From Planosporangium thailandense (GTDB taxonomy: Bacteria > Actinomycetota > Actinomycetes > Mycobacteriales > Micromonosporaceae), in NCBI RefSeq assembly GCF_011947195.1, contig NZ_JAATVY010000011.1:1-64000 (forward strand): DNA of 64,000 nucleotides, given 5' to 3'. A program made the translations under genes and the position numbers. Below are positions 41,568 to 57,550 of this stretch, piece after piece. Position 1 is the first letter of the stretch. Each line of letters starts with the position of its first letter. Below the pieces are notes generated by a model. It had not been told where the DNA came from. It saw only the letters and a program-made list of their open reading frames with translations, and did not search any database.

Positions 41568-42800
41568 TCAGGTGGCGTGCCGGCGCTCGGGCATTCGGCC
41601 CGTGTCGCTGCCGTCCGCGCGACCGTCTTCGCAAACCGGCGCGGGCGTACCGGCCGGCGGATGGTGGACGAGTGCGCGGGCCCGCTCCGCCACGATCCGC
41701 AGCGGCAGTCCGAGCGCTGTCGCAGCCGCGGCGACGTCGTCGTGTTCGGGTTTGGCGCCCCACGGACCGTGTTTGATGCGGATCGGGTGCCCGTCGAGGT
41801 CGACCGTGCTGGTACGCCGGGACAGCGCGAGCCGCTCGACCGGGAGGCGGCGCAGACCCAGGCTGCCGGTCTCCTCCAGGACGATGCGCTCGCACGCGGC
41901 GGCCCGGTCCGGGCCGACCAGCACCTGCACGGTATGGGCGGGTCGGCCCTTCTTCATCACGATCGGTACCAGCCAGGCATCGGCGGCGCCGGCGGCGAGC
42001 AGTCGGTCGACCAGGTGGCCGAGCACCTCGCCGGTGACGTCGTCGACATTCGTCGCCAGCAGGTGCAGCGCGTCGACCGCCCCGATGGGGTCGCCCAGCA
42101 GCGCCTGCAGCACGTTGGGCCGGCCCTCGACCTCCCGGCTGCCCGCGCCGTACCCGACGGTGTGCACGGTCATCGGCGCAACCGGCCCGAATCGGGCGCG
42201 TGCGGCCAGCAGAAGTGCCGCGCCGGTCGGTGTGACCGTCTCCCCGGCCGTGCCGGCCGGAACGACCGGGGCGCCGGCTCGCGCCAGCAGCGCCGCGGTC
42301 GCGGGCGCCGGTACGGGGAGCGTGCCGTGCCGGGTCCGTACCGTCCCGGCGCCGAGGCCGAGCGGGCCACTGTGCACGTCAGTGATCCCGAGCAGGTGCA
42401 GCGCCGCGGCCACGCCGACGGTATCGACGACGGTGTCGGTTCCGCCGACCTCGTGCAGGCGCACCCTGTCAACCTCGACGCCGTGCACATCCGCCTCCAC
42501 GTCGGCGATGGCCCGCACAGCCCGCGTGGCGAGGGCCGCCACGGGCTCGGGCCGGGCCCGCCCGACGATCTCCAACAGCTCGACGGCCCGGCGGCCGGTC
42601 GCGTTGTCGCAGACGGTGACCACCGCCCGCGTCGCGGCCAGACCGCCCCGCGTGACCTCGATCCGTGCCAGGTCCCACCCGTCAATGCCGGCGCTGCGTA
42701 TCGCGGCGCGTACGCCGTCCAGTGGGGCGCCCAGCCTCAGCAGCGCGCCCAGGAACATGTCGCCGGAGATACCGCTGAACGGGTTGAGCCAACAGATCAT
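41568..42800 (-). CDS. larC: Nickel pincer cofactor biosynthesis protein LarC
   Basis: A 410-residue CTP-dependent nickel insertase completing the nickel-pincer nucleotide used by LarA-family enzymes. It begins MICWLNPFSGISGDMFLGALL, the canonical LarC N-terminus, and continues through LHEVGGTDTVVDTVGVAAAL and the C-terminal TNVDDVTGEVLGHLVDRLL. Unlike Lactiplantibacillus, where LarC needs a programmed frameshift, the two halves are one open frame here. The ATG at 42800 overlaps the larB stop. Confidence 0.93.
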   Translation of the reverse strand: MICWLNPFSGISGDMFLGALLRLGAPLDGVRAAIRSAGIDGWDLARIEVTRGGLAATRAVVTVCDNATGRRAVELLEIVGRARPEPVAALATRAVRAIADVEADVHGVEVDRVRLHEVGGTDTVVDTVGVAAALHLLGITDVHSGPLGLGAGTVRTRHGTLPVPAPATAALLARAGAPVVPAGTAGETVTPTGAALLLAARARFGPVAPMTVHTVGYGAGSREVEGRPNVLQALLGDPIGAVDALHLLATNVDDVTGEVLGHLVDRLLAAGAADAWLVPIVMKKGRPAHTVQVLVGPDRAAACERIVLEETGSLGLRRLPVERLALSRRTSTVDLDGHPIRIKHGPWGAKPEHDDVAAAATALGLPLRIVAERARALVHHPPAGTPAPVCEDGRADGSDTGRMPERRHAT

Positions 42801-43507
42801 CGGCGGGCCGCCATCCGGTAGGCGGCGATCGCGGCGCCGAACCCCGAGTCGATATTGACGACGACCACCCCCGGTGCGCACGAGGACAACATCGCCAGCA
42901 GCGCCGTCACCCCGTCCAGGGCCGCGCCGTACCCCACCGAGGTCGGCACGGCGATGACCGGGCACGCCACGAGGCCGCCGATGACGCTGGGCAGCGCGCC
43001 TTCCATCCCCGCGATGCAGATCACCGCGCCTGCGCCGGACAGCGGCCCGCGTTCGGCCATCAGCCGGTGCAGCCCGGCGACCCCGACGTCGCTGATGCGG
43101 TGCACCGACAGCCCGACCGCGCCGGCCACGCCGGTCGCCTCGGCGGCTACCCCGCCGTCCGCGGTCCCGGCCGAGACGACGGCCACGTCGAACCCCACCG
43201 GCTCGGCCCGGTGCCAGACCAGCAGCCGGGCAGCGGCATCGTATTCAGCGTCCGGGACCGCCCGGCACACCTCGCTCGCCACCGGTTGCTCGATCCGGGT
43301 CACCAGTACCGGGCCGGTGTTGGCTCGCAGCAGGCTGCGTACGACGCCGGTGATCTGCTCCGGGGTCTTGCCCGGTCCGTAGACGACCTCCGGTAGGCCC
43401 AGCCGCGCCTCCCGGTCGGTGTCCGGGCGGGCCCAGCCCAGGTCGTCGAAGCCTCGTCCGTTGCTGATCAACCCCGCGCGGGCGTAGCTGTCCGTGGAGT
43501 GATTCAC
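42797..43507 (-). CDS. larB: Nickel pincer cofactor biosynthesis protein LarB
   Basis: A 236-residue carboxylase/hydrolase of the PurE-like fold that acts on nicotinic acid adenine dinucleotide at the start of nickel-pincer synthesis. Typical segments are VVYGPGKTPEQI, VVSAGTADGGVAAEA and the closing VNIDSGFGAAIAAYR. The start is GTG 43507, overlapping the larE stop by 4 bases. Confidence 0.93.
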   Translation of the reverse strand: MNHSTDSYARAGLISNGRGFDDLGWARPDTDREARLGLPEVVYGPGKTPEQITGVVRSLLRANTGPVLVTRIEQPVASEVCRAVPDAEYDAAARLLVWHRAEPVGFDVAVVSAGTADGGVAAEATGVAGAVGLSVHRISDVGVAGLHRLMAERGPLSGAGAVICIAGMEGALPSVIGGLVACPVIAVPTSVGYGAALDGVTALLAMLSSCAPGVVVVNIDSGFGAAIAAYRMAARR

Positions 43508-44373
43508 GCTCGGTCCAGGTAGGTCATCGAGAAGGCGCCCGACTGGATGCCGGCCAGATCGACCGCCGCGTACCGGAACCCGGCTGACGTGACGGCTCGC
43601 TGTACCGCCTGGCGCAGCGGCTCGGTGACGGCTCGCGGCAGATCGGCGGGCGGAAGCTCGATCCGGGCGACGTCGCCGTGGTGGCGCACCCGAAGGTCGG
43701 CGAAGCCGAGCCGGCGCAGCGCCGCCTCGGCGGCCTCGATCTGGCCCAGCTTCTCCGGCGTCACCTCGTCGAAGTGGGGAATCCGGGAAGCGAGGCAGGG
43801 ACTGGCCGGCTTGTCCGCGCACGGCAGCCCGAACGCCCGGGCGATGCTGCGCACCGCGGCCTTGTCCAGGCCGGCGTCCGCGAGCGGGCGCAGCACCGCG
43901 TGGGCCGCGGCGGCCCGCGCGCCGGGACGGTCGGGCCGCCGCGCGTCGTCGGCGTTCTCCCCGTAGGCGACCGCGGCGAGGCCGTAGCGGTTCACCAGGT
44001 CGTCGGCGATCCGGGTGAACAGCTCGTCCTTGCAGTGGAAGCAGCGGTCGGGATGGTTGCGGCGGTACTCGGGGCGCTCGCCTTCCCGGGTGACCACTTC
44101 CCGCACGCGTACCCCGAGGCCGGCGGCGATGTCGTGCGCGGCGGAACGTTCGGCGGCGGCGAGGCTGGGCGAGACCCCGAGGATCCCCAGTACCTGGTCG
44201 GGCCCCAGCGTCCGGGCGGCCAGTGCGAGCAGAGTCGAGGAGTCGACCCCGCCGGAGAAGGCCACGCCGAGCGGCGCGGTGCCGGCCAGCAGCGCCGCCA
44301 CCCGGTCGGCCGCCTCCCGGTCGGCTCCCGACAGTTCGGGGTCCGGGCGGATCGAGGTTTGCGGCGGGGTCAT
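43504..44373 (-). CDS. larE: Nickel pincer cofactor biosynthesis protein LarE
   Basis: A 289-residue ATP-pyrophosphatase-type sulfur transferase that converts the LarB product to its dithiocarboxylate. The PP-loop is GVAFSGGVDSSTLL (residues 36-49). Four cysteines occur as RCFHC and, later, PCADKPASPC; the last, in SPCLASRI, lies where the sacrificial sulfur-donor Cys sits in the Lactiplantibacillus enzyme. First gene of larEBC, with 4-base overlaps to larB and larC. The cofactor made should serve the LarA-like protein at 55268-56635. Confidence 0.93.
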   Translation of the reverse strand: MTPPQTSIRPDPELSGADREAADRVAALLAGTAPLGVAFSGGVDSSTLLALAARTLGPDQVLGILGVSPSLAAAERSAAHDIAAGLGVRVREVVTREGERPEYRRNHPDRCFHCKDELFTRIADDLVNRYGLAAVAYGENADDARRPDRPGARAAAAHAVLRPLADAGLDKAAVRSIARAFGLPCADKPASPCLASRIPHFDEVTPEKLGQIEAAEAALRRLGFADLRVRHHGDVARIELPPADLPRAVTEPLRQAVQRAVTSAGFRYAAVDLAGIQSGAFSMTYLDRA

Positions 44374-44445
44374 GTCGTCCCCCTCAGCGGCCGCGCCGGC
44401 AGGGCTTCCTCCAAGTGTGCACCTGTCGCGCGGGGGCGGCGGGGC

Positions 44446-45639
44446 TCACCGTGCGGCTTCACGGACCATGCGGTTGGCGTCGGTGCGCGTGATCGCCGTT
44501 GCTTGGAGGAGTTCACCGGCGATGGTGCGCACGACGGCGACGACCGCGGTGCCGGACAGCCCGAGCCCCGCCCGGCATGCGTCGCCGGCCTGGCAGACGG
44601 CGGTCAGGGTTCGGTGGCGCGCCCGGTGCGGCTCTCGGCCGGCGATGAAGTCTTCGTCCAGCTCGCGGAGCGCCAGGCCGAGGTTGTGTACCGCTTCGGG
44701 TAGCAGGGGCGGAAGTTTCTCGCCGTCGACGATGAGGGAGATCGACCTGCGGGTGAGACCGCGGCTGGCCAGCACCGCCCGGTCGAGATGCTCCGCGCCC
44801 TCGCTGTACTGCTGAAGCGAGTCGCGCCAGTGACGCCGTTGCGGGGAGAACCGCACCACCTCCTGGGCGCCCTGCACGGCGTCGGAGAGCCGCGCCAGCT
44901 CATCACCCATGTCCCGCAGCTCCTGCAGCGCCTTCTCGGCCCCGGAGGCGTCGTGGTCTGCCAGCGCTCGTCCCGTCGCGGTCAGCTGCGCCGCCAGCTG
45001 TTTCAAGGCGGGAGCGGCGGCCTTGTGCACGATCCGTAGCGGGTTCAGCGGGAAAAGTACGATCACCACCAGCAGCCCGATCATGCCGCCGGTCACGGCA
45101 TTGGCCAGCTGGGTCGCGGCCACCCCGGACGCGGTCGTCGGCGCTACCGCGGAGACCAGCACCGCCGTTCCGCCGGCCTGTGTGACGAGACCGCCGTGGC
45201 CGGTCAGCGCGATGGCGAGCAGGATCGTGGCGGTGACGATGAGACCGGTCTGCGCCGCTCCGTGTCCGACGAGCGCGAGGAACGCGTTCGCGATCGCGAT
45301 GCCGAGCCCCACGCCGGCGATGAGTTCGACGACCCGGCGGAGCCGCTGGCCCACCGCGCCGGCCACGGTACCGACGGCGGCGATCGGCGCGAAGACCGGA
45401 TTGTGGGTACTGATCCCGATCCTGCCCGCCACGATCCAGGCCAGGCCGGCCGCGATTCCCGCTTGAACGGCCAGCACCGAGTACATGGCCAGCTGTCGCC
45501 TTCGGTCCCGTTCGGTGGTCCGGGTCCGGTGCCGCCAGCTGTCGAGCACCTTCTCGACCCGCGTGGCGTACGGGCCGCCGGGGACTCTCGCCGCGGACTC
45601 CCGCCGCAATCGTTTCAGCTTGCCCATGGCAGATGGCAT
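44446..45639 (-). CDS. FUSC-family membrane protein (second copy)
   Basis: A 397-residue protein with helices AMYSVLAVQAGIAAGLAWIVAG and NPVFAPIAAVGTVAGAVGQRLRRVVELIAGVGLGIAIANAFLAL, then a helical cytoplasmic part. It shares its plan, including an xPxFAPIAAV block followed by a GxRxxR-type loop, with the protein at 37811. The start may be 45639 or the ATG at 45627; neither has a well-spaced Shine-Dalgarno. It lies 72 bp upstream of larE on the same strand. Substrate unknown. Confidence 0.7.
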   Translation of the reverse strand: MPSAMGKLKRLRRESAARVPGGPYATRVEKVLDSWRHRTRTTERDRRRQLAMYSVLAVQAGIAAGLAWIVAGRIGISTHNPVFAPIAAVGTVAGAVGQRLRRVVELIAGVGLGIAIANAFLALVGHGAAQTGLIVTATILLAIALTGHGGLVTQAGGTAVLVSAVAPTTASGVAATQLANAVTGGMIGLLVVIVLFPLNPLRIVHKAAAPALKQLAAQLTATGRALADHDASGAEKALQELRDMGDELARLSDAVQGAQEVVRFSPQRRHWRDSLQQYSEGAEHLDRAVLASRGLTRRSISLIVDGEKLPPLLPEAVHNLGLALRELDEDFIAGREPHRARHRTLTAVCQAGDACRAGLGLSGTAVVAVVRTIAGELLQATAITRTDANRMVREAAR

Positions 45640-45750
45640 CCCCCCGGCCGCGGCCGGCAAATCCGACCACTCCGCCGAATACGAGTGCGATGCGCAACCG
45701 CGCCCGGTGCGTCCCGGTGTCCGCGGTACGACAGCGGGTATCGGGCCGGC

Positions 45751-46722
45751 ATGAAACTCGGATACACCCTGTCCTGCGAGGAGTACGGGCCCGCCGAGCT
45801 GATCGAGCAGGCCAAGGCCGCCGAGCGGGCCGGCTTCGAGGCGCTGTGGATCTCCGACCACTTCCACCCCTGGTCCGATGCGCAGGGGCAGAGCCCGATG
45901 GTCTGGCCGATGATCGGTGCGCTCAGCCAGGTCTGCGCGCTGCCGATCACCACCGCGGTGACCTGCCCGATCATGCGGATCCACCCGGTGATCATCGCTC
46001 AGGCGGCGGCGACCAGCGCGGTGCTGACCGGCGGGAAGTTCGTCCTCGGCGTGGGTACCGGCGAGGCGCTCAACGAGCACATCCTCGGCGACCACTGGCC
46101 GTCGACCGATGTGCGCCTGGCCATGCTCGACGAGGCCGTCGACCTCATCCGTCGACTGTGGACCGGCGAGTTCGTCAACCACCACGGCGAGTACTACGTC
46201 GTCGAGCAGGCCAGGATCTACACGCTGCCGGACCAGCCGCCCAAGATCTACGTGTCCGGGTTCGGGCCCAAGTCGGTCGACGTGGCCGCGCGGATCGGTG
46301 ACGGGTACGTCTCCACCAAGCTCGAACCGCAACTGGTGCAACGGTTCCGCGACCACGGCGGTGGCGCGAAGCCCGCGCAGGGCGGCTTCAAGGCGTGCTA
46401 CGCGTCCTCCCGGGAGGACGCGCTGCGGATCGCCTTCGACAAGTGGCGCAAGCAGGGGCTGCCGGGCGAGCTGTCGCAGGTGCTGCCGTCGCCGCGACAC
46501 TTCGAGCAGGGGAGCACGCTCGTCGAGCCGGACATGGTCGCCGATCAGTTCGCGCTCGGCCCGGATCCGGCCGCGCACGTGGCGAAGATCGAACAGTTCG
46601 CCGACGCCGGCTACGACGAGGTGTACGTCGCGAGCATCGGCCCGCACCACCGCGAGCTGTGCGAGCTGTACGCCCGGGAGGTTGTGCCGCGGGTACGCCG
46701 CCGGGAGCCGGTCCGCGCCTGA
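45751..46722 (+). CDS. F420-dependent LLM-class oxidoreductase (FGD-like)
   Basis: A 323-residue luciferase-like (TIM-barrel) F420 enzyme. WISDHFHPW (about residues 33-41) and GVGTGEALNEHILG (about 100-113) match signatures of the FGD-like subgroup; the first is also found in mycobacterial F420-dependent glucose-6-phosphate dehydrogenase. Most relatives outside mycobacteria have no proven substrate, so the call is FGD-like only. The presence of a separate zwf nearby is compatible with either glucose-6-phosphate or another sugar/alcohol. Convergent with uidB. Confidence 0.85.
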   Translation: MKLGYTLSCEEYGPAELIEQAKAAERAGFEALWISDHFHPWSDAQGQSPMVWPMIGALSQVCALPITTAVTCPIMRIHPVIIAQAAATSAVLTGGKFVLGVGTGEALNEHILGDHWPSTDVRLAMLDEAVDLIRRLWTGEFVNHHGEYYVVEQARIYTLPDQPPKIYVSGFGPKSVDVAARIGDGYVSTKLEPQLVQRFRDHGGGAKPAQGGFKACYASSREDALRIAFDKWRKQGLPGELSQVLPSPRHFEQGSTLVEPDMVADQFALGPDPAAHVAKIEQFADAGYDEVYVASIGPHHRELCELYAREVVPRVRRREPVRA

Positions 46723-46750: not shown

Positions 46751-46758
46751 TACGGGTC

Positions 46759-48155
46759 TCATCTCGGGCGCTGGGTGACCGGCTTCGCCGGCGTCGCGGC
46801 ACCGCCCGGAGCCGGCGGCACCTCGGCGGCGCGGCGCTGCGCCAGCTCGGTGACCATCCCGCGCAGCACCTTCTCGGTGATCGGGTAGGCGAGGATGATG
46901 AGGATCGCCAAGGCGACGAAGGCGGCGGTGAGCGCCCCGGCACCGAGCCTGATCGTGGTGATCGCGCCTCTGGGCTGGACCCTGGCTCCGGCGATGTAGC
47001 CGCCGAGCCCGAGGGCGTACGCCGCAGCGGCTCCGCCGACGCCCTGCCCGACCTTGCGGGTGAAGGAGAGCACCGAGTAGATCGTGCCCTCGGCGCGGAC
47101 GCCGGTCCGCCACTCGCCGTAGTCCACGGTGTCGGCTTCCATCGCCCAGATGATGGTGTTGATGGTGCCCAGGCCGAGGCCGAGCACGGCGAAGCACACG
47201 ATGCCGATCACCGGGACCGACCCCGGCGCAACGGCGAGAGCGACCCCGCCCACGACGGTTACGACGCCGCCCAGGATGTAGACGGTCTTCTTGCCGACCG
47301 ACTCCACGGCCTTCGGAGCGAGGGCCGCCGCCGCGATCATGCCGACCGTCTGCGCCACGGTCAGGACGACGTAGTAGCCGCCGCTGCCGAGCACGTCGCG
47401 GGCGTAGTACACGGCGAGCGTCTGCAGCGTGAACATCCCGCCGAGAAACAGCAGGCCCGACAGCGACAGCAGGATCAGCGGCCGGTTGTGCCCGAGCATG
47501 GCGAGGCTCTCGCGCAGACCGACCTTCTCCTCCTCGCGCTGCACCTGCTCGAGCGAGGTGAAGAAGCACCACAGGTACAGCCCGAACCCGACGACGAGGA
47601 AGATCGCCATGAGGATCGTCAGGGATCGTTGCAGGTTGTTCGAGGTCTGGATCAGCGGCGCGACGATCGCCGCCAGCGCCAGGATCGTCAGGTTCGAGCT
47701 GACGACCCGGGAACTGGACAGCCGGCTGCGCTCGTCCGGGTCCTGCGTCATCGCCGCGGCGAGCGACCCGTAGGGAATGTTGACGAAGCTGTAGGACAGC
47801 CCCCAGAGCGTGTAAGTGACGTAGGCGTAGACGAGCTTGCCGGTCGTGCTGAGCCCGCCGGGCACCGAGAACAGGGCCACGCCGAGAAACAGCAACGGTA
47901 GCGAGCCGAACAGCAGGTAGGGGCGGAACTTGCCCCACCGGGTCGAGGTCTTGTCGACCTCCGGCCGGCGAGCAGGTCGGTGACGCCGTCCCAGACCCGG
48001 ACCAGCAGGAACAGGGTGCCGACGGCAGCGGCGGAGATGCCGGCGACGTCGGTGTAGTAGAACAGCAGGAACATCGACGCCATCGAGAAGACGAGGTTGT
48101 TCGCGGCGTCACCGGCGCCGTAGCCGAGGTACTGATTCAGGCCGAGCTTCTTCAT
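46759..48155 (-). pseudogene. GPH-family glucuronide symporter (UidB-like), frameshifted
   Basis: Two halves in different frames. From ATG 48155 the frame encodes MKKLGLNQYLGYGAGDAANN through RVWDGVTDLLAGR. The rest (DKTSTRWGKFRPYLLFGSLP onward, ending near 46759) is in another frame. The two join at about 47961-47964, where one base appears missing in a GC-rich run (a single added G restores RVWDGVTDLLAGREVDKTSTRW, the family's motif order). Twelve-helix GPH sodium/proton:glucuronide symporter by sequence and by position behind uidA. Either a genuine recent pseudogene or a one-base sequencing/assembly error. If intact, it is the glucuronide importer of the operon. Confidence 0.85.
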
Positions 48156-48202: not shown

Positions 48203-49993
48203 TCAGGGCGACCCGCGCCACCGCCGACGCAGCAGATGGGCGGCGGCCTTGGGGTGGCGGTCGCGGGTGAAGACGCCCTTCCGGTTGCCGCCGACGCGCA
48301 TGATCGTGACCGAGGTGGCGAAGTCGGCGAAGTTCCAGACGTGCTCGCCGACCACCGCGTCGACGCGGTCGAACACCCGGTGGTACATCGCGAGCAGTTC
48401 GACCTGGTACTCCTCGGTCCACGGCACCGCGACGACGCTGTGCAGGCCGGCCACCGTGTCGGCGCCGTACTCGGTCATGATGATCGGCTTGCCGTACCTG
48501 TCCGCCCAGGTGCTGAGCTCGACCTCCAGGTCGCGCTCGGCGGCGGGCAGGTCGCCGGTGTCGGTGTACCAGCCGTAGTAGCGGTTGAGCATGAGCACGT
48601 CGAACAGGTCGGAGAGCACGTCCCGGTCGGGGGTGGCGACCAGGACGTTGGCGAACGCCACCGGCCGGGTCGGATCCAACCGCCGGGCCTCGGCAACCAG
48701 CGGTTCGAAGTAGGCGCGGGACGCGGGAGTCCACGACTCGGGCTCGTTGGCGATGCTCCAGATCACGACACTGGGGTGGTTCTTGTCGCGGGCGACGAGC
48801 TCGCGGATCGCCTGCCGGTGCACCTCCCGCGTGGCGTCGTTGACCGTGTCCGGCGAGAACGTCGTGAACGACGTCTTGGCGAGGGTGGCGCCGAGTTGGG
48901 CGTTGAGCCCGACGGCGGCAGTCTCGTCGATGACGACGAGGCCGTGCCGGTCGGCGTAGTCGAGGACCTCCTCGGCGTACGGGTAGTGGGAGGTGCGGAA
49001 CGAGTTGGCGCCGATCCAGTCCAGCAGGGCGAAGTCGTGGACCAGGAACACGTCGTCGTGGCCCTTGCCGCGTACCGGGGTGTCCTCGTGCTTGCCGAAA
49101 CCCCGGAAGTAGAACGGCTCGCCGTTGATGAGGAACCGGGTGCCGGACACGTCGACGGTGCGGATGCCGACCGGCAGCGGGTACACGTCGACCGGCCCCT
49201 CGCCGTCGCGCCACAGCTCCACGGTGAAGGTGTAGAGGTAGCCCTCACCCGGCCGCCACGGGTGCACGTCGGCGACGGTCAGCTCACCCGCGGCTCCGGT
49301 GGCCCGCGCGACCTCGGTACCCGTGGCGTCGGCGAGCCCGACGCGCACCTCGGTCCCGTCGGCGCCCGCCGTCTCGACCTCGTAGCCGACGGTGCCTGCG
49401 GTACCGGACAGGCCGGTGACGACGGTGACATCTCGCACGTACGCGGTCGGGGTCGTGTACAGCCACACCGTCCGGTGGATACCGGCGTAGTTGAAGAAGT
49501 CGTGGAAGTACCACTGGCGCGGGCCCTCGGGAGTCTGATCGACGTAGCCCGGTGGGATCGACTGCCAGGTCAGCACGTTGTTGACGACGGCGGTGACCCG
49601 GTTGTCCGCGCCGAACTCCACGACGTCGGTCACGTCGGCCTCGAACGGGGTGTAGCCGCCCTCGTGCTCGACGACCTGCGTGTCGTTGACCCACACCACG
49701 GCCCGGTGGGTCGCCGATCCGAAGCGCAGCACGATCCGCTGGCCGGCCCACCGGTCCGGCACCCGCACCAGGGTCTGGTACCACACGTCGCCGACGTGGT
49801 CGTGAACGCGGGCATCGGCGAACAGGTCGTTGTAGCTCGCCGGCACGGGCGCTTCCCGGGCGCCGGGCAGTGGGCCGCGCCACCAGCCCTCGCCCCGGCC
49901 GACACCGTCGGCGTCGAGGGCGAATCGCCACAGCCCGTCGAGCGACCGGCGTTCCCGGGTGGGCGTCTCGCGGGGTTCGAGCATGTCGGTCAC
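48203..49993 (-). CDS. uidA: Beta-glucuronidase (GH2)
   Basis: A 596-residue glycoside hydrolase family 2 enzyme releasing D-glucuronate from beta-glucuronides. The acid/base is Glu417 in ANEP and the nucleophile Glu508 in TEYGAD; their spacing (91) equals that of E. coli GUS (413/504). The NRKGVFTRDRHPK motif near the C-terminus contains the N-x-K pair that reads the carboxylate in true glucuronidases, which excludes plain galactosidase. No signal peptide, so it acts on imported substrate. Overlaps the preceding kinase gene by 4 bases and feeds uxaC. Confidence 0.95.
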   Translation of the reverse strand: MTDMLEPRETPTRERRSLDGLWRFALDADGVGRGEGWWRGPLPGAREAPVPASYNDLFADARVHDHVGDVWYQTLVRVPDRWAGQRIVLRFGSATHRAVVWVNDTQVVEHEGGYTPFEADVTDVVEFGADNRVTAVVNNVLTWQSIPPGYVDQTPEGPRQWYFHDFFNYAGIHRTVWLYTTPTAYVRDVTVVTGLSGTAGTVGYEVETAGADGTEVRVGLADATGTEVARATGAAGELTVADVHPWRPGEGYLYTFTVELWRDGEGPVDVYPLPVGIRTVDVSGTRFLINGEPFYFRGFGKHEDTPVRGKGHDDVFLVHDFALLDWIGANSFRTSHYPYAEEVLDYADRHGLVVIDETAAVGLNAQLGATLAKTSFTTFSPDTVNDATREVHRQAIRELVARDKNHPSVVIWSIANEPESWTPASRAYFEPLVAEARRLDPTRPVAFANVLVATPDRDVLSDLFDVLMLNRYYGWYTDTGDLPAAERDLEVELSTWADRYGKPIIMTEYGADTVAGLHSVVAVPWTEEYQVELLAMYHRVFDRVDAVVGEHVWNFADFATSVTIMRVGGNRKGVFTRDRHPKAAAHLLRRRWRGSP

Positions 49994-50730
49994 CTCGTCA
50001 CGGGAGTGCTCGCCGCCCTCCGGGCCCGGCTGGCGGCCACGATGACGTCGACGCAGGCGTCGATGCTGAAAGCGGTGGACTCGATCATCAGGTGGTAGAG
50101 GCTCGGGTCCTCACCGTCGACGCCGTAGGCGTCGCGGACGTACCCGATCCGGGCCCGGTCGTTGAGCCGGATGCGCCGTTCGGCGGTGCGCCGGTCGACC
50201 CCCTCGACCTCCATCGTGCGCGCCACCCGGGCCGCGAACGGCCCGCCCAGGTGCACGTGCAGCGCGCCGGGCACGTCCCTGAGCACCACCGCGCCGCCGC
50301 GCCCGAGCACCACCCCACCGGTCCGGCGACTCTGGGCGAGGAACCGCGCGATCTCGGCCCGGATCCGACGCTCCTGTTCGTCAAGGTGCCTCGACGAGCC
50401 CGGGCCGTACGTCACCACGGGCACCCTCGCCAGCCACGCGAACAGTCGATCGGCGCGGCTGTGCGGCTGCTCGTCGACCGCGCCGATCGCCTCCGCCGGG
50501 ACGCCCATCCGTTCGGCGACCGCGGCCGGGATGGCGCGGTCCAGGTACGGCACTCCGAGTCGGTCGGCGACCCGCGGGGCGATCGTCGTCCCTCCGCTGC
50601 CGTAGCGCGAGGCCACGGTGACCACGGGCGGCAGCGCGGGCGGGGCCGGGGTAGGGGGACGGCCAGCGCCGGGGGCTCCGGCCGGGTTCGGGCCGTGCGG
50701 TGGCACGGCGACCGGATCAGGTGTGTTCAT
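49990..50730 (-). CDS. Cytidylate kinase-like protein within the hexuronide operon
   Basis: A 246-residue protein of the cytidylate-kinase-like family (PF13189 type). The P-loop region reads VASRYGSGGTTIAPRVADRLG, with glycines and serine but no Walker A lysine at the usual place, as in that family. A Pro-rich 35-residue N-terminus precedes it. It overlaps both gntK and uidA by 4 bases, so it is truly part of the operon, yet no hexuronate step needs it. Possibly a small-molecule kinase or a regulatory/tetracycline-type helper; unknown. Confidence 0.8.
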   Translation of the reverse strand: MNTPDPVAVPPHGPNPAGAPGAGRPPTPAPPALPPVVTVASRYGSGGTTIAPRVADRLGVPYLDRAIPAAVAERMGVPAEAIGAVDEQPHSRADRLFAWLARVPVVTYGPGSSRHLDEQERRIRAEIARFLAQSRRTGGVVLGRGGAVVLRDVPGALHVHLGGPFAARVARTMEVEGVDRRTAERRIRLNDRARIGYVRDAYGVDGEDPSLYHLMIESTAFSIDACVDVIVAASRARRAASTPVTR

Positions 50731-52349
50731 CCGCCACCTCCGGGCGGTGTGCCGGGGACCGTCCGCGGCGCCGGCGCCGGCGCCGAGCGGGTGGCGGCTG
50801 CCGCCGCGGGCGTGGTCGGGGCCAGTGCCCCGGCGGCGGACTCCAGCCCGCGTACGAGCCCGGGCAGCGAGGCGCGCAGCCGCGCGTAGGTGGCCACCAG
50901 GTCGGGGGGAGCCTCGACCGGGGACTCCGGCGCCGCGTCGGGCGGGGAGAGCCGGGCCGCGGCCGTACCGAGGCGGGTCGCGTGGCCGAGCGCGACCAGC
51001 CCCAACGCGGCCGCGCCGAGCGCGGTACCCTCCGCCTCGCCGACCACGGTGAGCGGCCGGGCGAGCACCGCGGCCATCGTCTCGCGCCACAGCGCCGCGC
51101 GGAAGGTGCCGCCGGTGGCCCGTACCGCGGTCACCGGCCAGAGCCGGTCGAGCTGATCGACGACGGCCCGCAGTTGCAGGCAGACCCCCTCGACGGCGGC
51201 GCGGATCAGGTGCGCGCGGGTGTGCTGGGCGCGTAGGCCGAGGATCGCGCCGGGCAGGTCCGGATCCCACAAGGGCGCGCGTTCGGCCACCAGGTAGGGC
51301 AGCACCACCAGGCCGTCGCTACCGGCGGGCGCGGTCGCGGCGAGGTCGAGCACCTCCTCGTCGTGGTGCTGCTCGGGCGGTCCGGTGAGCAGGTCCGGCG
51401 TCAGCGCCCGGCCGGCCCAGCGGACGACGAGCCCGCCGTTGCTGATCGCGCCACCGACCACCCACGCCGAATCGGTCAGCGCGTAGCAGAACAGCGTCCC
51501 CCGGTCGTCGACCTTCGGCTCCGGGATGACCATGCGCACCGCCCCGCTGGTGCCCAGCGACAGGCCCGCCACGCCGGGCGAGACCGCGCCGGTGCCGAGG
51601 TTGCCGAGCGGGCCGTCGGCGGCGCCGGCGACCACCGGTGTGCCGGCGGGCAGGCCGATCCGGGAGGCCGCCGTCGCCGCGAGTGTGAGCGTGGCGGTGG
51701 TGGGCAGGATCGATGGGAGCTGCTCGGCCGAGATCCCGGCGAGCTCGACCGCCGCCGGGCTCCAGGTACGCGTCGCCAGGTCGAGCATCCCGGTTCCGCC
51801 GGCCGATGACAGGTCGGTGGCGAGCGTGCCGGTCAGCCGCCAGAGCAGGTAGTCCTTGAGCCCGAACCACCAGCGGGCGGCCGCGCAGGTCCGCCGGTCG
51901 TGGCGGGCGAACCACATGAGCTTCGTCAGCGGTGTCATCGGGTGTACCGGGATGCCGGTGTGCCGGTGCAGCTCGGCGGCCTGACCATCGGTACGCAGCG
52001 CCCTCGCCTCGCCGTCGGCGCGCGAGTCCGCCCAGATCACGAGCCTGGTGACCGGGCGCATGACGGCGTCGAGGCCGATGAGCCCGTGCATCGCCGCGCT
52101 GACCGAGATGCCGAGCACCTCGGCGTCGCCGACGCCGGCGACGCACTCCGCGAGCGCTGCCGCCGCGCACTCCGCGATCCGCTCGGGGTCCTGCTCGTAC
52201 CAGCCGGGGACCGGCTCCACCACGGGGTACTCGCGCAGGGCCAGTCGGCGCCAGTCCGAGTCGAGCCCGAAGGCCACCGCCTTCGCGGCCGTCGTGCCGA
52301 CGTCGAGTCCGATCATCACCCGCGGAGGTGAGCGCTGCGGCGAGGTCAT
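50727..52349 (-). CDS. gntK: Gluconokinase (FGGY family)
   Basis: A 540-residue sugar kinase. The N-terminal phosphate loop is IGLDVGTTAAKAVAF and the catalytic Asp lies in GAADGPLGNLG. The block HTGIPVHPMTPLTKLMWF matches Bacillus gluconokinase GntK (TGTPIHPMSPLSK) rather than xylulokinase or glycerol kinase. It should phosphorylate D-gluconate to 6-phosphogluconate. In a classical hexuronate pathway the kinase would be KdgK, so its presence here points to gluconate as the operon's intermediate. A C-terminal Ala/Pro-rich tail of about 40 residues is extra. Overlaps uxuB and the next kinase. Confidence 0.87.
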   Translation of the reverse strand: MTSPQRSPPRVMIGLDVGTTAAKAVAFGLDSDWRRLALREYPVVEPVPGWYEQDPERIAECAAAALAECVAGVGDAEVLGISVSAAMHGLIGLDAVMRPVTRLVIWADSRADGEARALRTDGQAAELHRHTGIPVHPMTPLTKLMWFARHDRRTCAAARWWFGLKDYLLWRLTGTLATDLSSAGGTGMLDLATRTWSPAAVELAGISAEQLPSILPTTATLTLAATAASRIGLPAGTPVVAGAADGPLGNLGTGAVSPGVAGLSLGTSGAVRMVIPEPKVDDRGTLFCYALTDSAWVVGGAISNGGLVVRWAGRALTPDLLTGPPEQHHDEEVLDLAATAPAGSDGLVVLPYLVAERAPLWDPDLPGAILGLRAQHTRAHLIRAAVEGVCLQLRAVVDQLDRLWPVTAVRATGGTFRAALWRETMAAVLARPLTVVGEAEGTALGAAALGLVALGHATRLGTAAARLSPPDAAPESPVEAPPDLVATYARLRASLPGLVRGLESAAGALAPTTPAAAAATRSAPAPAPRTVPGTPPGGGG

Positions 52350-53734
52350 CGCACCCCTTGGCGCTGGAACCGGTCCACGTCGGCGAGGACCGCCGCCACC
52401 AGCGCGTCATCGTCGCCGAGCGCGCGGTCGAGGCTGGCCAGGACGCGGGGCACGGCGTCCCGCAGCGGACCGGACGCGCGGGGCACCACCTCATCGGCGC
52501 GTGCGTCGTGCACCGGCGCGCCCTGCCCGCGCAGGTGACACACCCACGCGGCCAACACGAGCACCGCGCCCCGGGGCATGCGCCCGGCCGACCGCTGTGC
52601 GCGCAGCACCGGCAGGATGCGTTCGGCCAGCTTCTGCGAGCCGTCCGCGGCGATCTGCTCGAGGCGGTGGTGCATCCGCGGGTTGGCGAAGCGCTCCACC
52701 AGCGCGTCGCAGTAGGCCTGAATGTCGGCGGCGGGCTGGTCCAGGTGCGGCGACGCGTCGGACCACCACTGCCGCACCCAGCGCCGGCAGGTGTCGTCGC
52801 CGATCGCCTCCGCGACGGTGGTGTGCCCCCGGATCGAGCCGGCGTACGCCAGCAGCGAGTGGGCGCCGTTGAGCAGCCAGAGCTTGCGGTGCTCGTACGG
52901 GGTGATGTCGGCGGTGAAGGTGGCGCCGGCCTCCTCCCAGCGGGGCCGCCCACCGGGGAAGGAGCCGCTGAGCACCCACTCGGAGAACGGCTCGGTGGCG
53001 ACCGGGGCGCGGTCGTCGCGGCCGGTGGCCTCCGCCACGACGCGCAGGTCGTGCGGGTCGGCGCGCGGGGTGATCCGGTCGACCTCCGTGGTGACGGTCG
53101 AGACGTGGTCGGACATCCAGTCGATGAGCCCGGGGTCGACCAGCTCGGCCACGTCGCGTACGACCCGGGCGGCGATCTGGCCGTTGCCGGCCAGGTTGTC
53201 GCACGGTACGAGGGTGAGCGGCCCGGCGTCGGCCCGGCGCCGGGCGGCGATCCCGGCGAGCAGGCGCGCCGGCGCGGTCTGCACCGACGCCGTCAGGTCG
53301 CGGCGCAGCGCCGCCACGTCGTCGCGGACCTCCGGGCGGTCGCGGTCGAGCCCGCCGTCGGGGCCGCGGAAGTACCCGGCCTCGGTGACGGTCACGGTGA
53401 CGGCGACGACCTCGGGGGAGCCGAGCAGGCGCAGCCAGGAGTCGTGGTCGACGCCCGGGCACGCCCGCGACAGGCTGCCGATCACCTCGAACCGGTCGCC
53501 GTCGGCGGCCCGCGTCACCAGCGTGTACAGGCCGTCCTGTGGGTCGAGCAGCTCCGGCAGGCGGCGGCTGCGGCCGGTGAACGCCGCGATGCCCCACTCC
53601 GGCGCGTCCGGGGCGTGCTCGGTGTACCAGGCCTGATGGGCCCGGAAGAAGTTGCCCAGCCCGAGGTGCACCAGCCGGACCGGCGCGGCTACCCGTCCCA
53701 CCCCGGCGCGCCGGGACAGCTCGTGGTCGTTCAT
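52346..53734 (-). CDS. uxuB: Mannitol dehydrogenase-family oxidoreductase, probable fructuronate reductase
   Basis: A 462-residue polyol-specific long-chain dehydrogenase. The N-terminal NAD site is RLVHLGLGNFFRAHQAWYT and the catalytic region contains KLWLLNGAHSLLAYAG, where K, N and H are the active-site set. The family includes mannitol dehydrogenase, UxuB and UxaB. Position directly behind uxaC and ahead of gntK makes fructuronate reductase (fructuronate to D-mannonate) the best call. 4-base overlaps with both neighbours. Confidence 0.87.
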   Translation of the reverse strand: MNDHELSRRAGVGRVAAPVRLVHLGLGNFFRAHQAWYTEHAPDAPEWGIAAFTGRSRRLPELLDPQDGLYTLVTRAADGDRFEVIGSLSRACPGVDHDSWLRLLGSPEVVAVTVTVTEAGYFRGPDGGLDRDRPEVRDDVAALRRDLTASVQTAPARLLAGIAARRRADAGPLTLVPCDNLAGNGQIAARVVRDVAELVDPGLIDWMSDHVSTVTTEVDRITPRADPHDLRVVAEATGRDDRAPVATEPFSEWVLSGSFPGGRPRWEEAGATFTADITPYEHRKLWLLNGAHSLLAYAGSIRGHTTVAEAIGDDTCRRWVRQWWSDASPHLDQPAADIQAYCDALVERFANPRMHHRLEQIAADGSQKLAERILPVLRAQRSAGRMPRGAVLVLAAWVCHLRGQGAPVHDARADEVVPRASGPLRDAVPRVLASLDRALGDDDALVAAVLADVDRFQRQGVR

Positions 53735-55155
53735 AGCTTGAAAACCCTCGTCGGCTGCGTGGAGACCAGGTCGACCGCGGTCTGCGCGGCCTCGTCCTCG
53801 GACAACCGGTAGTCGGCGACGAGGCGGGCCAGCACGCCGGCGTCGACGCGCCGCGACAGGTCGTGGCGGGCCGGGATCGAGCAGAAGGCCCGGGTGTCGT
53901 CCACGAACCCGGAGGTACGGGTGAAGCCCGCGGTCTCACTCACCGCCTCCCGGAACCGGCGCTGGGCCGCCGGCGCGTCCAGGAACCACCAGGGCGACCC
54001 GACGTACAGCGACGGGTAGAACCCGGCGAGCGGCGCCAGCTCCCGCGACCAGACCGTCTCGTCGACGGTGAACACGACCAGGTGGAATCCGGGGTACGTG
54101 CCGTACCGGTTGAGCAGCGGGCGCAGCGCGTCGGTGAACTCGATCCGGATCGGGATGTCGTGGCCGGTGTCGGGGCCGTACCGTTCGAAGGTCGGCAGGT
54201 GGTGGTTGCGCCGCACCCCCGGGTGCAGCGTCATCACCAGCCCGTCGTCGCACGACATCCGGGCCATCTCGGTCAGCATGTGCCGGCGGAACGCCACCGC
54301 CTCGTCGGGCGTGGCCGCGCCGGCAAGCGCCGCCCGGTAGATGCGGGCCGCCTCGGCCGGCCCGAGCGGATCGGTTCGCGCGTCGGGGTGGCTGTGGTCG
54401 GTCGACCGCGCGCCGTGGGCGATGAAGTACCGCCGGCGCTCCGCCAGGGCCTGCAGGTAGCCGGGGTAGTCGCCGGTGTCGACACCGGCCGCCACGCCGA
54501 GCCGGGCGACCGCGTCGGGCCATCCCGGCTGCGCCGGCTCCAGGTACGCGTCGGGCCGAAACGCCGGGATCACCCGCCCGTGCCAGGTCGGGTCGGCGGC
54601 GAGCGCGGCGTGCGCGGCCAGGTCGTCGCACGGGTCGCTGGTGGTGACCAGGACCGCGAGACGGAAGCGGGCGTACAGCGCGCGCGGCCGGTACGCGTCG
54701 TCGCGCAGCCGCGCGGACACCTGGTCGTAGATGGCGTCGGCAGTCGCCGCCGACGGGCGCTCGGTCACCCCGAAAATCTCCGCCAGCTCGGCCTCGAGCC
54801 AGTAGCGCACCGGGGTGCCGCGGAACACCGGCCAGTGTTCGCACAGCAGCCGCCATACCCGCCGCGCCGCGTCCGGCGACAGCGGCCCCTGGCCGACCCC
54901 GAGATCCGCCAGGTCGACTCCGTCGGCGTGCAGTAGCCGGGTGACGTAGTGGTCGGGCGTGACGAACAGGGTCGCGGGATCCGGGAACGGCTGGTTGTCG
55001 AGTAGCAGGTGCGGATCGACGTGACCGTGCGGGGAGATCAGCGGCGCGTCGCGTACCGCGTCGTAGAGCCGGCGGGCGATGTCCCGTACGTGCGGCTCGG
55101 CCGGCAGCAACCGGTCGGGGTGGAGTGCCAGTTCGACGGCGGTCTGGACACCCAT
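53731..55155 (-). CDS. uxaC: Glucuronate isomerase
   Basis: A 474-residue metal-dependent isomerase of the amidohydrolase-like fold converting D-glucuronate to D-fructuronate. The N-terminal block PLISPHGHVDPHLLLDNQPF and the mid-protein GIRRNHHLP-like region (PGVRRNHHLPTF) are UxaC signatures; length is standard. First gene of the operon uxaC-uxuB-gntK-kinase-uidA-uidB, each joined by 4-base overlaps up to uidA. Divergent from the larA-like gene over 112 bp. Confidence 0.94.
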   Translation of the reverse strand: MGVQTAVELALHPDRLLPAEPHVRDIARRLYDAVRDAPLISPHGHVDPHLLLDNQPFPDPATLFVTPDHYVTRLLHADGVDLADLGVGQGPLSPDAARRVWRLLCEHWPVFRGTPVRYWLEAELAEIFGVTERPSAATADAIYDQVSARLRDDAYRPRALYARFRLAVLVTTSDPCDDLAAHAALAADPTWHGRVIPAFRPDAYLEPAQPGWPDAVARLGVAAGVDTGDYPGYLQALAERRRYFIAHGARSTDHSHPDARTDPLGPAEAARIYRAALAGAATPDEAVAFRRHMLTEMARMSCDDGLVMTLHPGVRRNHHLPTFERYGPDTGHDIPIRIEFTDALRPLLNRYGTYPGFHLVVFTVDETVWSRELAPLAGFYPSLYVGSPWWFLDAPAAQRRFREAVSETAGFTRTSGFVDDTRAFCSIPARHDLSRRVDAGVLARLVADYRLSEDEAAQTAVDLVSTQPTRVFKL

Positions 55156-55221
55156 AGGTCAAGCATGGCCACGCCGGCTCCGGCCTCGCCAATCGGATTG
55201 TGCGTCCGCGGGTGGGGAAAT

Positions 55222-55232
55222 TGTCCTGGACA
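55222..55232. promoter_or_regulatory. Palindromic operator candidate in the uxaC / larA-like divergent promoter
   Basis: TGTCC-T-GGACA, a perfect 11-bp dyad lying 67 bp from the uxaC start and 36 bp from the larA-like start. GntR-type regulators of uronate genes bind short dyads of similar style. No regulator gene is in this cluster. Confidence 0.5.
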
Positions 55233-55267
55233 CACCCATCGGCGGGAGCTTCGCGAAGGAGCCGGCC

Positions 55268-56635
55268 ATGACCGAGACAGCGCCGCACACGCGGCAGGGG
55301 ACCGCTGTGGCGAGGATCGGTGGGCCCGGGGTGACGCTCTCCGACGAGCAGGTCCGCGCCTTCGTCCACGAACAGCTCCGGGAGGTCGACCTGGACGGGC
55401 GCAGCCTCTGCGTCCTGGTATCCGACGGCACCCGTACCTGCCCGCTGCCGCTGTTGCTGTCCGCGTTGCACGGCGCCGTCCACGGCCGCGTCAGCCGGCT
55501 GACCGTCCTGGTCGCGCTCGGCACCCATCCCGCGATGACCGAGGCGGCGCTCGCGATGCATCTGGGCTACCCCGAGGGCGGGCTGCGGGAGCGCTATCCG
55601 GACACCGCCGTGCGCAATCACGAGTGGTGGGACCCGGCCACCTTCGTCGATCTCGGCACGATCACGGCCGACCGCATCGCCGAGCTGTCCGACGGGATGC
55701 TGCGCCAGCGCGTGGACGTACGGATCAACCGGGCCGTGGTGGACCACGACCTCACGGTCATCGTCAGCCCCGTCTTCCCCCACGAGGTCGTCGGGTTCTC
55801 CGGTGGCAACAAGTACCTGTTCCCAGGGGTTTCCGGGCGGGAGCCCATCGACGTCTCGCACTGGTTGGGCGCGCTGATCACCAGCGCCAGGATCATCGGA
55901 ACTCGTGGCGTCACCCCGGTCCGGGCGCTCATCGACGAGGCCGCCGCGATGGTTCCCGGCGAGCGGCTCGCGCTGTGCATGGTGACGGGTGCGGGGAAGG
56001 CCCGCTCGGAGCCGGAGGAGATCGCACCCGCCAAGGCGGCCCAGACACCGGCGGACCTGCCACCGGCCGGCGAGACCGCGGTCCGCCTGCACGCCATGAC
56101 GTTCGGCGAGCCGCAGGCCGCCTGGGCGGCGGCCGCGGACGTCTCGGCCGCCACGCACATCCGCTACCTCGACGCCCCGGTGCACAGGGTGTTGTCGATC
56201 CTCCCGACCCGGTACGACGACCTGTGGACCGGAGCCAAGGGCTTCTACAAGGTCGAGCCGATCGTCGCCGACGGCGGCCAGGTCGTCATCTACGCCCCGC
56301 ACATCCACGAGATCAGCGCGACGCACCCCCAGATCGCCGAGATCGGGTACCACTGCCGCGACTACTACGTCAAACAGTGGGACCGGTTCTGCAACTACCA
56401 CTGGGGCGACCTGGCGCACTCCACCCACCTGCGTGGCGCCGGCACCTACGACCCCGAGCACGGCGAAGACGACCGCGTCACCGTCACCCTCGCCACGGGT
56501 ATCCCTGCCGACCAGGTCCGCGCGGTGAACCTCGACTACCTCGACCCCGCCTCGATCGACATCGGGGCCTGGGGCGCGGACCCGGACACCCTCGTCGTCC
56601 CCGACGCCGGTGAGGACCTGTTCCGCCTGCGCTGA
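55268..56635 (+). CDS. LarA-family nickel-pincer hydroxyacid racemase/epimerase, proposed mannonate/gluconate 2-epimerase
   Basis: A 455-residue member of the lactate racemase superfamily (DUF2088). Residues expected for nickel-pincer catalysis are all visible: D53 and R56 (SDGTR), the catalytic histidines H87 (GTHPAMT) and H172 (FPHEVVGFSGG), K182 (GGNKYLFPG) for covalent cofactor attachment, and nickel ligand H198 (DVSHW). Spacing H172-K182-H198 is identical to Lactiplantibacillus H174-K184-H200. It is a functional-looking enzyme, not just a DUF. AAGGAG precedes ATG 55268. It is divergent from uxaC-uxuB-gntK, and larEBC lies 11 kb away. D-mannonate and D-gluconate are C2 epimers, and the superfamily is reported to include aldonate 2-epimerases, so mannonate-gluconate epimerase is my proposed role. 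Lactate or another 2-hydroxyacid remains possible. Confidence 0.88.
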   Translation: MTETAPHTRQGTAVARIGGPGVTLSDEQVRAFVHEQLREVDLDGRSLCVLVSDGTRTCPLPLLLSALHGAVHGRVSRLTVLVALGTHPAMTEAALAMHLGYPEGGLRERYPDTAVRNHEWWDPATFVDLGTITADRIAELSDGMLRQRVDVRINRAVVDHDLTVIVSPVFPHEVVGFSGGNKYLFPGVSGREPIDVSHWLGALITSARIIGTRGVTPVRALIDEAAAMVPGERLALCMVTGAGKARSEPEEIAPAKAAQTPADLPPAGETAVRLHAMTFGEPQAAWAAAADVSAATHIRYLDAPVHRVLSILPTRYDDLWTGAKGFYKVEPIVADGGQVVIYAPHIHEISATHPQIAEIGYHCRDYYVKQWDRFCNYHWGDLAHSTHLRGAGTYDPEHGEDDRVTVTLATGIPADQVRAVNLDYLDPASIDIGAWGADPDTLVVPDAGEDLFRLR

Positions 56636-56701
56636 GCGGTCGGGTCCCCCGCGGCGTCCGGGCACTGCGCGGCAGACCGCAGGCGAGGCGATCGCCGCGG
56701 C

Positions 56702-57550
56702 TCACCCGGCATACTCCCGAACGGGCAGGCCGCGCACGCCGACCGCGGCCCGGAACAGCGAGCCGGCCACCGGATCGTCGCCGGCTTCGAGGCCTTCGCG
56801 TGACGTGGTGATGAACAACGTGTCCAGGTGTGGGCCGCCGAACGTGCAGGCGGTGACCATCCTGGTCGGTAGCTCGATCACCTCGTCGACCACGCCGTCC
56901 GGGGTGTAGCGGCGCACCGCACCGCCCTTGTGGAGCGCCACCCACACCCCTCCGTCGGCATCGACCGTCAGGCCGTCGGGGCGGCCAGCCTCGAGCGGGA
57001 TACTCACAAACGGGCGCCGGCCGGTCAGTCCGGAGCCTCGGTCGTAGTCGAACACGGCGACGCGCTGGGTGGCGGTGTCGTTGTAGTAAGCGCGGGTGCC
57101 GTCCGGGCTCCACTCCAGGCCGTTCGAGATGGTCACTCCGTCCAGCACCACCTGTACGGACCGGTCGGGGTCGAGCCGGTACAGCGCGCCGGCGCCCGGT
57201 CGCTGGTCGTACGCCATCGATCCGCAGTAGAAGCGGCCGTCCGGATCGCATCCGCCGTCGTTCATCCGCACGCTGTCGTCGGTCCACAGTTCGGGCAGGT
57301 GGGTGAGCGTGCCGTCGGCGTCCTCGACGGCAAAGCCCCGCTCGACGCCGATGACAGCACCGCCCCGGCGGCGCGGCCGAACGGCGGCGGCGACCCGGCC
57401 GACGTGGCGCCGGGTGATCGTCGCGTCCGTTGCCAGGGACAGCACATCGCCGGCAAGCATGTCGACCCAACGCAGCCCGCCCCAGAGCGAGGACCACACG
57501 GGCCCCTCGCCGTGGTAGGTCACCGGGCCGGTTACCTGGTCAGGACGCAC
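56702..57550 (-). CDS. SMP-30/gluconolactonase-like protein
   Basis: A 282-residue six-bladed beta-propeller lactonase of the SMP-30/regucalcin family. Metal-ligand positions are present in HGEGPVW (Glu), ISNGLEWSPDG (Asn) and RPDGLTVDADGG (Asp). The start is GTG 57550 with GGAGG upstream; a longer frame to 57940 is unsupported. It probably hydrolyses an aldono-lactone such as glucono-lactone to gluconate, which would enter at gluconokinase. Convergent with the LarA-like gene. Confidence 0.87.
   Translation of the reverse strand: MRPDQVTGPVTYHGEGPVWSSLWGGLRWVDMLAGDVLSLATDATITRRHVGRVAAAVRPRRRGGAVIGVERGFAVEDADGTLTHLPELWTDDSVRMNDGGCDPDGRFYCGSMAYDQRPGAGALYRLDPDRSVQVVLDGVTISNGLEWSPDGTRAYYNDTATQRVAVFDYDRGSGLTGRRPFVSIPLEAGRPDGLTVDADGGVWVALHKGGAVRRYTPDGVVDEVIELPTRMVTACTFGGPHLDTLFITTSREGLEAGDDPVAGSLFRAAVGVRGLPVREYAG

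Follow-up and report, generated by a model that had tools for sequence, protein, structure and literature searches.

Contig C13 of Planosporangium thailandense begins with the 64 kb considered here (G+C 71%; henceforth the window, meaning this whole stretch of 64,000 nucleotides). Between positions 41568 and 57550 lies a gene cluster that quite probably encodes a catabolic route from glucuronides to gluconate and 6-phosphogluconate, with a homologue of LarA acting as a mannonate 2-epimerase. The genome comprises 7.01 Mb in 114 contigs and is 98.5% complete. In the proposed route, UidA would cleave beta-glucuronides, UxaC would isomerize D-glucuronate to D-fructuronate, and a UxuB-like reductase would convert the latter to D-mannonate. 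The LarA homologue, equipped with the nickel-pincer nucleotide (NPN) made by LarE, LarB and LarC, would then turn D-mannonate into D-gluconate, inverting C2 through proton-coupled hydride transfer. Phosphorylation by an FGGY kinase would give 6-phosphogluconate, which Gnd, encoded elsewhere in the genome, would convert to ribulose 5-phosphate. Epimerase and kinase would together replace the mannonate dehydratase UxuA and the 2-keto-3-deoxygluconate (KDG) branch of the classical route.

We favor this route because of the gene content of the cluster, the lack of any match above cut-off to UxuA, the altronate dehydratase UxaA or the mannonate dehydratase ManD in the genome, the conservation of the arrangement in related loci together with its absence around distant LarA relatives, the presence of gnd beside some of the homologues, and a natural fusion of a gluconokinase with a LarA domain in another phylum. 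The route appears to recur among actinobacteria. If correct, it would suggest a physiological role for an actinobacterial branch of the LarA superfamily, where publications have left open what the one assayed actinobacterial GntE (GntE1) natively acts on, and would tie nickel to glucuronide use in these bacteria. Glucuronate would enter the pentose phosphate pathway at the cost of one reduction (UxuB) and with one oxidation (Gnd), a combination whose appeal for metabolic engineering has been noted for galacturonate, a related case (PMC6978723).

The LarA homologue and its cluster

The LarA homologue matches the Lar_N domain (PF09861, 72.5 bits, cut-off 23.3). Its open reading frame (ORF) has a first ATG at 55079 (518 amino acids), which the sequence-only reading of this DNA had taken as the start; since conservation begins after the ATG at 55268 (455 amino acids), the latter is probably the true start. 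The closest solved structure is 4NAR (E 1.9e-58 across residues 110-517 of the 518-residue ORF), i.e., GntE2 of Thermotoga maritima (PMC7583248), and the remaining LarA proteins in the PDB reach E 1.3e-5 or worse. In an alignment of 17 sequences, D53, R56, H87, H172, K182, H198 and K324 are invariant. Alignment to 4NAR equates them with D72, R75, H108, H174, K184, H200 and K298 of LarA, residues listed for catalysis and NPN binding (PMC7583248). The loop residues E173-V174 behind the catalytic histidine and W320 in helix 11 are likewise invariant, and an E-V/S loop and a helix-11 tryptophan are part of the signature of LarAH groups 18-20 (PMC7583248). A profile search of the 7.0 Mb genome recovered this protein as the single Lar_N match, and for this reason LarB, LarC and LarE presumably serve it.

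The minus-strand genes of the cluster occupy positions 55155 to 41568 and are, in this order, uxaC, the UxuB-like reductase gene, the FGGY kinase gene, a cytidylate-kinase-like gene, uidA, a GPH transporter gene, a gene for a FUSC-domain protein, larE, larB and larC. The LarA homologue lies on the plus strand, divergent from uxaC, and the next gene, encoding an SMP-30/gluconolactonase protein, converges on it. The annotated features are as follows.

41568-42965, minus strand: larC, predicted nickel insertion protein for the NPN cofactor (Pfam PF01969, 376 bits; NCBIfam LarC1 and LarC2, above cut-off)
42797-43822, minus strand: larB, predicted NPN cofactor biosynthesis (NCBIfam LarB, 255 bits, cut-off 175)
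43504-44373, minus strand: larE, predicted sacrificial sulfur transferase (NCBIfam TIGR00268, 273 bits, cut-off 150)
46759-48155, minus strand: GPH-family glucuronide transporter gene (UidB-like) with a broken frame (NCBIfam, on ORF 46759-47895)
48203-49993, minus strand: uidA, predicted beta-glucuronidase (NCBIfam PRK10150, 902 bits, cut-off 544)
49990-50700, minus strand: cytidylate-kinase-like P-loop protein (Pfam PF13189, 134 bits), between the FGGY kinase gene and uidA
50727-52349, minus strand: FGGY kinase, proposed gluconokinase or mannonate kinase (best model NCBIfam gntK_FGGY)
52346-53734, minus strand: UxuB-like reductase of the mannitol dehydrogenase family, proposed fructuronate reductase (Pfam PF01232 and PF08125)
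53731-55155, minus strand: uxaC, predicted glucuronate isomerase (NCBIfam PRK02925, 541 bits, cut-off 387)
55156-55267, no strand: 112-bp gap from which uxaC and the larA homologue diverge (from the coordinates)
55268-56635, plus strand: LarA homologue, proposed D-gluconate/D-mannonate 2-epimerase (GntE; Lar_N, nearest PDB entry 4NAR)
56702-57520, minus strand: SMP-30/gluconolactonase-like protein of uncertain relation to the route (Pfam SGL PF08450, 251 bits)

Pfam, NCBIfam and alignment placed larEBC, uxaC, the UxuB-like reductase, uidA, the LarA homologue with intact residues and the gluconolactonase-like gene at or near the positions where the sequence-only reading had put them; the GPH transporter and cytidylate-kinase-like genes were missing from its inventory. 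By their coordinates, uxaC and the reductase gene overlap by 4 bases, as do the reductase and kinase genes. What had been called a GntK-type gluconokinase is an FGGY kinase with gluconokinase as its best model. Its closest PDB sequence is the gluconate kinase 3GBT (E 2.7e-87, runner-up E 2e-49), and those closest to the reductase are 4IM7, the oxidoreductase ydfI, and 1LJ8, a mannitol dehydrogenase. Because both proteins score below the curated cut-offs of the relevant models (see below), their names, gluconokinase and fructuronate reductase, are based on closest relatives and gene context.

Mannonate and KDG genes in the rest of the genome

The genome contains no match to UxuA (PF03786) or to UxaA (PF04295), each of which was found in 5 of 14 control genomes. 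All eight enolase-superfamily proteins (PF13378 matches) of the genome were scanned, and none exceeded the curated cut-off for ManD: one galactonate dehydratase, two o-succinylbenzoate synthases and one enolase pass their own cut-offs, and the other four fall under every cut-off. A 6-phosphogluconate dehydrogenase, as required for the last step of the proposed route, is present (PF00393, 417.8 bits, G000:C1:426347-427210). Nothing evident in the gene complement would turn mannonate into KDG.

Mannonate dehydratase and KDG kinase had both been reported missing from the cluster. For the dehydratase this extends to the entire genome as far as UxuA-type matches are concerned; for the kinase it holds in the cluster, but among 15 PfkB matches in the genome, ten of which were scanned, two (L148 and L154) have KDG or 2-keto-3-deoxygalactonate (KDGal) kinase as their best model, both below the curated cut-off. 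The genome also carries three genes of the 2-keto-3-deoxy-6-phosphogluconate (KDPG) aldolase family, one of which lies on contig C40 with a KDG-kinase-like gene beside the galactonate dehydratase gene; given this adjacency, the host can probably use KDG-type intermediates from another source. The sequence-only reading had held that uxuA and kdgK elsewhere in the genome would refute the route if they were needed for growth on glucuronate. Of the two, kdgK-like genes were found and uxuA was not, and without a mannonate dehydratase the former would be of no use to the route.

Linkage to uronate genes in related loci

We compared 95 loci of 3 to 21 kb, comprising 17 from a survey of the class (see below) and the best 80 of at least 581 confirmed relatives in named genomes, minus two duplicates. 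Loci L048 and L056 are near-identical to the named records L087 and L132, which identifies two genomes of the class as the actinobacteria Haloactinopolyspora alba and Microbacterium sp. K24. uxaC occurs in 57 and uxuB in 62 of the 95 loci, either gene in 65 and both in 54; uidA is found in 24 and a lar maturation gene in 39. In 41 loci uxaC and larA are divergent neighbors, with 34-249 bp between the matches. An FGGY kinase of at least 48% identity is encoded in 18 loci and sits 6-189 bp from a same-strand uxuB in 15 of these, and a GntK-type kinase occurs in five loci. The decarboxylating 6-phosphogluconate dehydrogenase gene gnd is present in 11 loci (the L058 match has only 34% identity and that in L101 is partly covered), eight of which also carry uxaC or uxuB. 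Altogether, uxaC or uxuB is accompanied by a gluconate-type kinase gene or by gnd in 24 loci.

UxuA, in turn, is encoded in none of the 95 loci versus all four UxuA control loci, and KDPG aldolase in one of the 95 versus one of the four. As a negative control, the loci of 16 distant LarA relatives from the same class, some on short contigs, contain neither uxaC nor uxuB (0/16), with lar maturation genes in 8/16. The linkage of the LarA homologue to uronate genes thus exceeds chance (65/95 versus 0/16). A LacI-type regulator family clusters with larA in 30 loci at a median distance of 93 bp; by tblastn, LacI-like matches appear in 50/95 loci but also in 2/4 controls, the family being a common one.

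Co-occurrence across genomes of the class

Among 394 genomes drawn from the class, 33 contain some match to the LarA homologue. Matches along the whole protein at 44% identity or more, which we call GntE-like, occur in 18 genomes including that of the window (in G015 the match is cut by a contig end); the remaining 15 genomes hold the 16 distant LarA places used above as a control (two in G211). uxaC was found in 54 of the 394 genomes and UxuA in 22, with 20 over the family cut-off. The association of GntE with uxaC is strong: 15/18 GntE-like genomes carry uxaC, compared with 39/376 others (Fisher p 1e-11, relatedness ignored). Its avoidance of UxuA is modest, as UxuA is absent from all 18 GntE-like genomes and, among genomes with uxaC, from 15/15 with a GntE-like protein, whereas 11 of the 39 others have it (p 0.018, relatedness ignored).

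A whole-genome search for UxuA in 49 further genomes, taken from the 80 named loci, does not bear out strict mutual exclusion. Replacement of UxuA by the LarA homologue is a tendency rather than a rule, since 2/49 genomes, those of Nakamurella lactea (L079) and Actinopolymorpha rutila (L126), hold UxuA-family genes as well. Among the UxuA-family proteins of these two genomes, four were scanned; two of these narrowly exceed the PRK03906 cut-off (215 and 208 versus 191), and none of the four reaches the TIGR00695 equivalog cut-off.

A gluconokinase-LarA fusion on a marine plasmid

Distant LarA homologues with 27% identity to the window protein were found in a plasmid collection, in two marine Alteromonadaceae. 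In Saccharobesus litoralis, a 589-residue protein (L168:11485-13254, NZ_CP026605.1) fuses a GntK-type gluconokinase to a LarA domain. Its residues 1-160 form the kinase domain (nearest PDB entries 3T61 and 1KNQ), and the LarA-type structure nearest to the LarA domain is 4NAR. Nearby lie larB, gnd, uxaC and a tagaturonate epimerase gene. Catenovulum adriaticum encodes kinase and LarA homologue as separate genes with a 1-base overlap, with larC, larB and uxaC in the vicinity. A fusion of this type speaks for a LarA reaction and a gluconate-type kinase reaction that follow directly on one another, and it is compatible with either order of the two. We found no account of a gluconokinase-lactate racemase fusion in a search of an open-access library; in the available text of PMC7953866, which deals with uronate genes of S. 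litoralis, the words "racemase" and "gluconokinase" never occur. The same source reports no growth of this organism on galacturonate (PMC7953866).

Weighing the route against its alternatives

Several observations weigh against the proposed route, the main doubts concerning the order of the steps, the sub-cut-off scores of kinase and reductase, and the genomes with both enzymes. The FGGY kinase scores 352 bits on gntK_FGGY (TIGR01314), under the cut-off of 649. For the reductase, the best NCBIfam model is D-arabinitol 4-dehydrogenase (256/600 bits), followed by fructuronate reductase (241/603), both below cut-off. The LarA homologue itself reaches 143/500 bits on the NCBIfam model for group-18 hexonate epimerases, a low score that argues against membership in group 18 and has no bearing on groups 19 and 20. 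Glucuronide uptake, which the cluster would provide through the GPH transporter, is clouded by a frame break around position 47960 (three-frame translation, judged by eye) that leaves the N-terminal part in another frame and may stem from faulty assembly or from genuine damage to the gene; the ORF at 46759-47895 scores 268 bits on the gph subfamily model (cut-off 231) and 360 bits on the glucuronide transporter model, below its cut-off of 528.

Comparative data add to this side of the balance. Neither uxaC nor uxuB is present in 30/95 related loci, some of them on short contigs. In the class survey, 28/54 genomes with uxaC lack both UxuA and a LarA homologue, and UxuA is scarce regardless (22/394). 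To these come the two genomes that carry UxuA-family genes beside the LarA homologue, and the chromosomal mannonate dehydratase listed for S. litoralis (PMC7953866). Biochemically, the KM values for D-mannonate are 120 (GntE1) and 17 (GntE2), in mM as deduced from the arithmetic of the published table (PMC7583248).

These high KM values would find an explanation if phosphorylation came first, i.e., if the FGGY kinase phosphorylated D-mannonate and the LarA homologue epimerized 6-phospho-D-mannonate to 6-phosphogluconate, an order to which we assign a small but real chance. The same chemistry has been described in extracts of Lactobacillus suebicus, which contain a mannonate kinase and a 6-phosphomannonate 2-epimerase and form no gluconate from mannonate without ATP; the epimerase gene was not identified (PMC6978723). 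The larA homologue would then also be a gene for that activity. Free mannonate is, however, converted in vitro by GntE1, GntE2 and LarAH15 (PMC7583248, PMC11770544). Free versus phosphorylated mannonate is a directly testable choice. To our knowledge, no NPN enzyme with a phosphorylated substrate has been known so far, and the one proposed here would be the first.

It is improbable that the LarA homologue acts instead on a different hydroxy acid from uronate metabolism, for instance by epimerizing a uronic or aldaric acid. The authors of the GntE1 work suggested just such a substrate for that enzyme (group 19) in view of its high KM (PMC7583248), and some related loci lack uxaC and uxuB. In Geodermatophilaceae bacterium URHB0062 (L088), the LarA homologue lies 84 bp from an enolase-superfamily dehydratase gene, and genes for a KDPG aldolase and a DgoD-like protein are found within 6 kb, a different context and perhaps one for another hexonate. 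Against this stands the frequency of uxuB, the expected source of mannonate, as a neighbor, with gluconate kinases and gnd in fewer loci; moreover, mannonate would be left without an evident consumer in a genome that lacks UxuA.

About as low are the odds that an unrecognized enolase-superfamily dehydratase, for example L037, feeds mannonate into KDG and on to kinases and aldolases encoded elsewhere, with the LarA reaction as a side activity, a scheme that could coexist with the proposed route. ManD is indeed the top NCBIfam model of L037, the best candidate in the genome (173.5/550 bits), and the KDG-kinase-like PfkB proteins and KDPG-aldolase-family genes described above would fit. Yet L037 scores higher against 4DX3 and 2POD (259 and 257 bits), PDB entries named only as members of the mandelate racemase/muconate lactonizing family, than against chains named mannonate dehydratase (at most 125 bits); it is encoded on another contig and has a homologue in just 1/95 related loci. 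An ordinary lactate racemase placed near uronate genes by coincidence, as the name of the Pfam domain might suggest, can be dismissed almost entirely in view of a score of 58/460 bits on the lactate racemase model, GntE2 as by far the closest structure, and the lack of uxaC and uxuB around distant LarA relatives. These alternatives overlap in part with one another and with the proposed route.

Relation to known systems

Both the chemistry and the idea behind the proposed route are already known (PMC7583248, PMC6978723). The sequence-only reading was aware of no description of this linkage as a pathway and had asked for a literature check. A mannonate-to-gluconate role of T. maritima GntE2 was hypothesized by Rodionova et al. 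in 2012, as cited in PMC7583248 and PMC6978723, and conversion of D-mannonate to D-gluconate in vitro was shown for GntE1 and GntE2 in 2020, a reaction that probably admits mannonate to the pentose phosphate pathway (PMC7583248). An oomycete GntE was added later (PMC11770544). For the actinobacterial version, with a glucuronidase, cofactor genes in the cluster and no UxuA match, we found no description in open-access literature listings, and the available text of PMC12611868 and PMC11796402 holds no passage on a sugar-acid route of this kind.

T. maritima provides the closest parallel. Its GntE2 (LarAH20) is a LarA-family enzyme clustered with fructuronate reductase and gluconate kinase and has the same catalytic and NPN residues as the window protein. 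The gene set of the 2012 route (uronate isomerase, fructuronate reductase, GntE, gluconate kinase) is clustered in the window, with the reductase and kinase named from context. Unlike the P. thailandense genome, in which no UxuA-type dehydratase was found, T. maritima has a UxuA match, being a control genome of our search; the 2012 proposal concerned hexuronate and pectin loci (PMC6978723), whereas the front end in the window is formed by a glucuronidase and UxaC, and larEBC are part of the cluster.

GntE1 (LarAH19) of Corynebacterium glutamicum, likened here by its description rather than by sequence, also comes from an actinobacterium, belongs to the LarA homologues, epimerizes gluconate at C2 and has a uronate-linked gene context, but its authors doubt mannonate as the native substrate (PMC7583248). 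The L. suebicus pathway likewise needs no dehydratase to link the isomerase route with 6-phosphogluconate and differs in that phosphorylation comes first (PMC6978723). With the classical route of Escherichia coli, represented in the class by L140 and L141 (uxaC-uxuA pairs 75 and 36 bp apart), the proposed route would share the UxaC and UxuB steps to mannonate; there, UxuA dehydrates mannonate on the way to pyruvate and glyceraldehyde 3-phosphate.

Further features of the window and of related loci

The LarB model spans residues 134-338 of its ORF, and the real start of larB is therefore probably further downstream. The window LarB and LarC are nearer to those beside distant LarA relatives (63-66% and 52-56% identity) than to those of GntE-like loci (at most 57% and 47%), so that larB and larC may have a separate origin.

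In the gap between uxaC and larA, L047 and L050 contain perfect LacI-like palindromes with a GGCAATCGATTGCC core. The 8-mer GGTTGCCA occurs in 18 of the 42 gaps examined and is absent from that of the window. A conserved operator in this gap was accordingly rejected, as LacI-like palindromes occur in some relatives and none is evident in the window.

Genes for acetate kinase and phosphoketolase at 60304-63873 lie near the cluster and could draw xylulose 5-phosphate from the route. As parts of the route itself they were discarded, since by a gene-based count Xfp and AckA each occur in 0/97 loci, with an AckA-like match by tblastn only in L070. Proteins similar to the cytidylate-kinase-like protein are encoded in 2/95 related loci. 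A flavin oxidase family occurs in six loci at a median distance of 189 bp from the LarA homologue, and its member in L102 combines FAD_binding_4 and BBE domains.

Homologues of the SMP-30/gluconolactonase protein are likewise found in 2/95 loci, and that of Knoellia sinensis (L091) is 70% identical. This locus has in common with the window lar genes, uxaC, uxuB, the FGGY kinase gene, a zwf-like gene (41%) and a FUSC-like gene (46%) in addition to the lactonase gene, a likeness hinting at a wider gluconate/6-phosphogluconate gene set.

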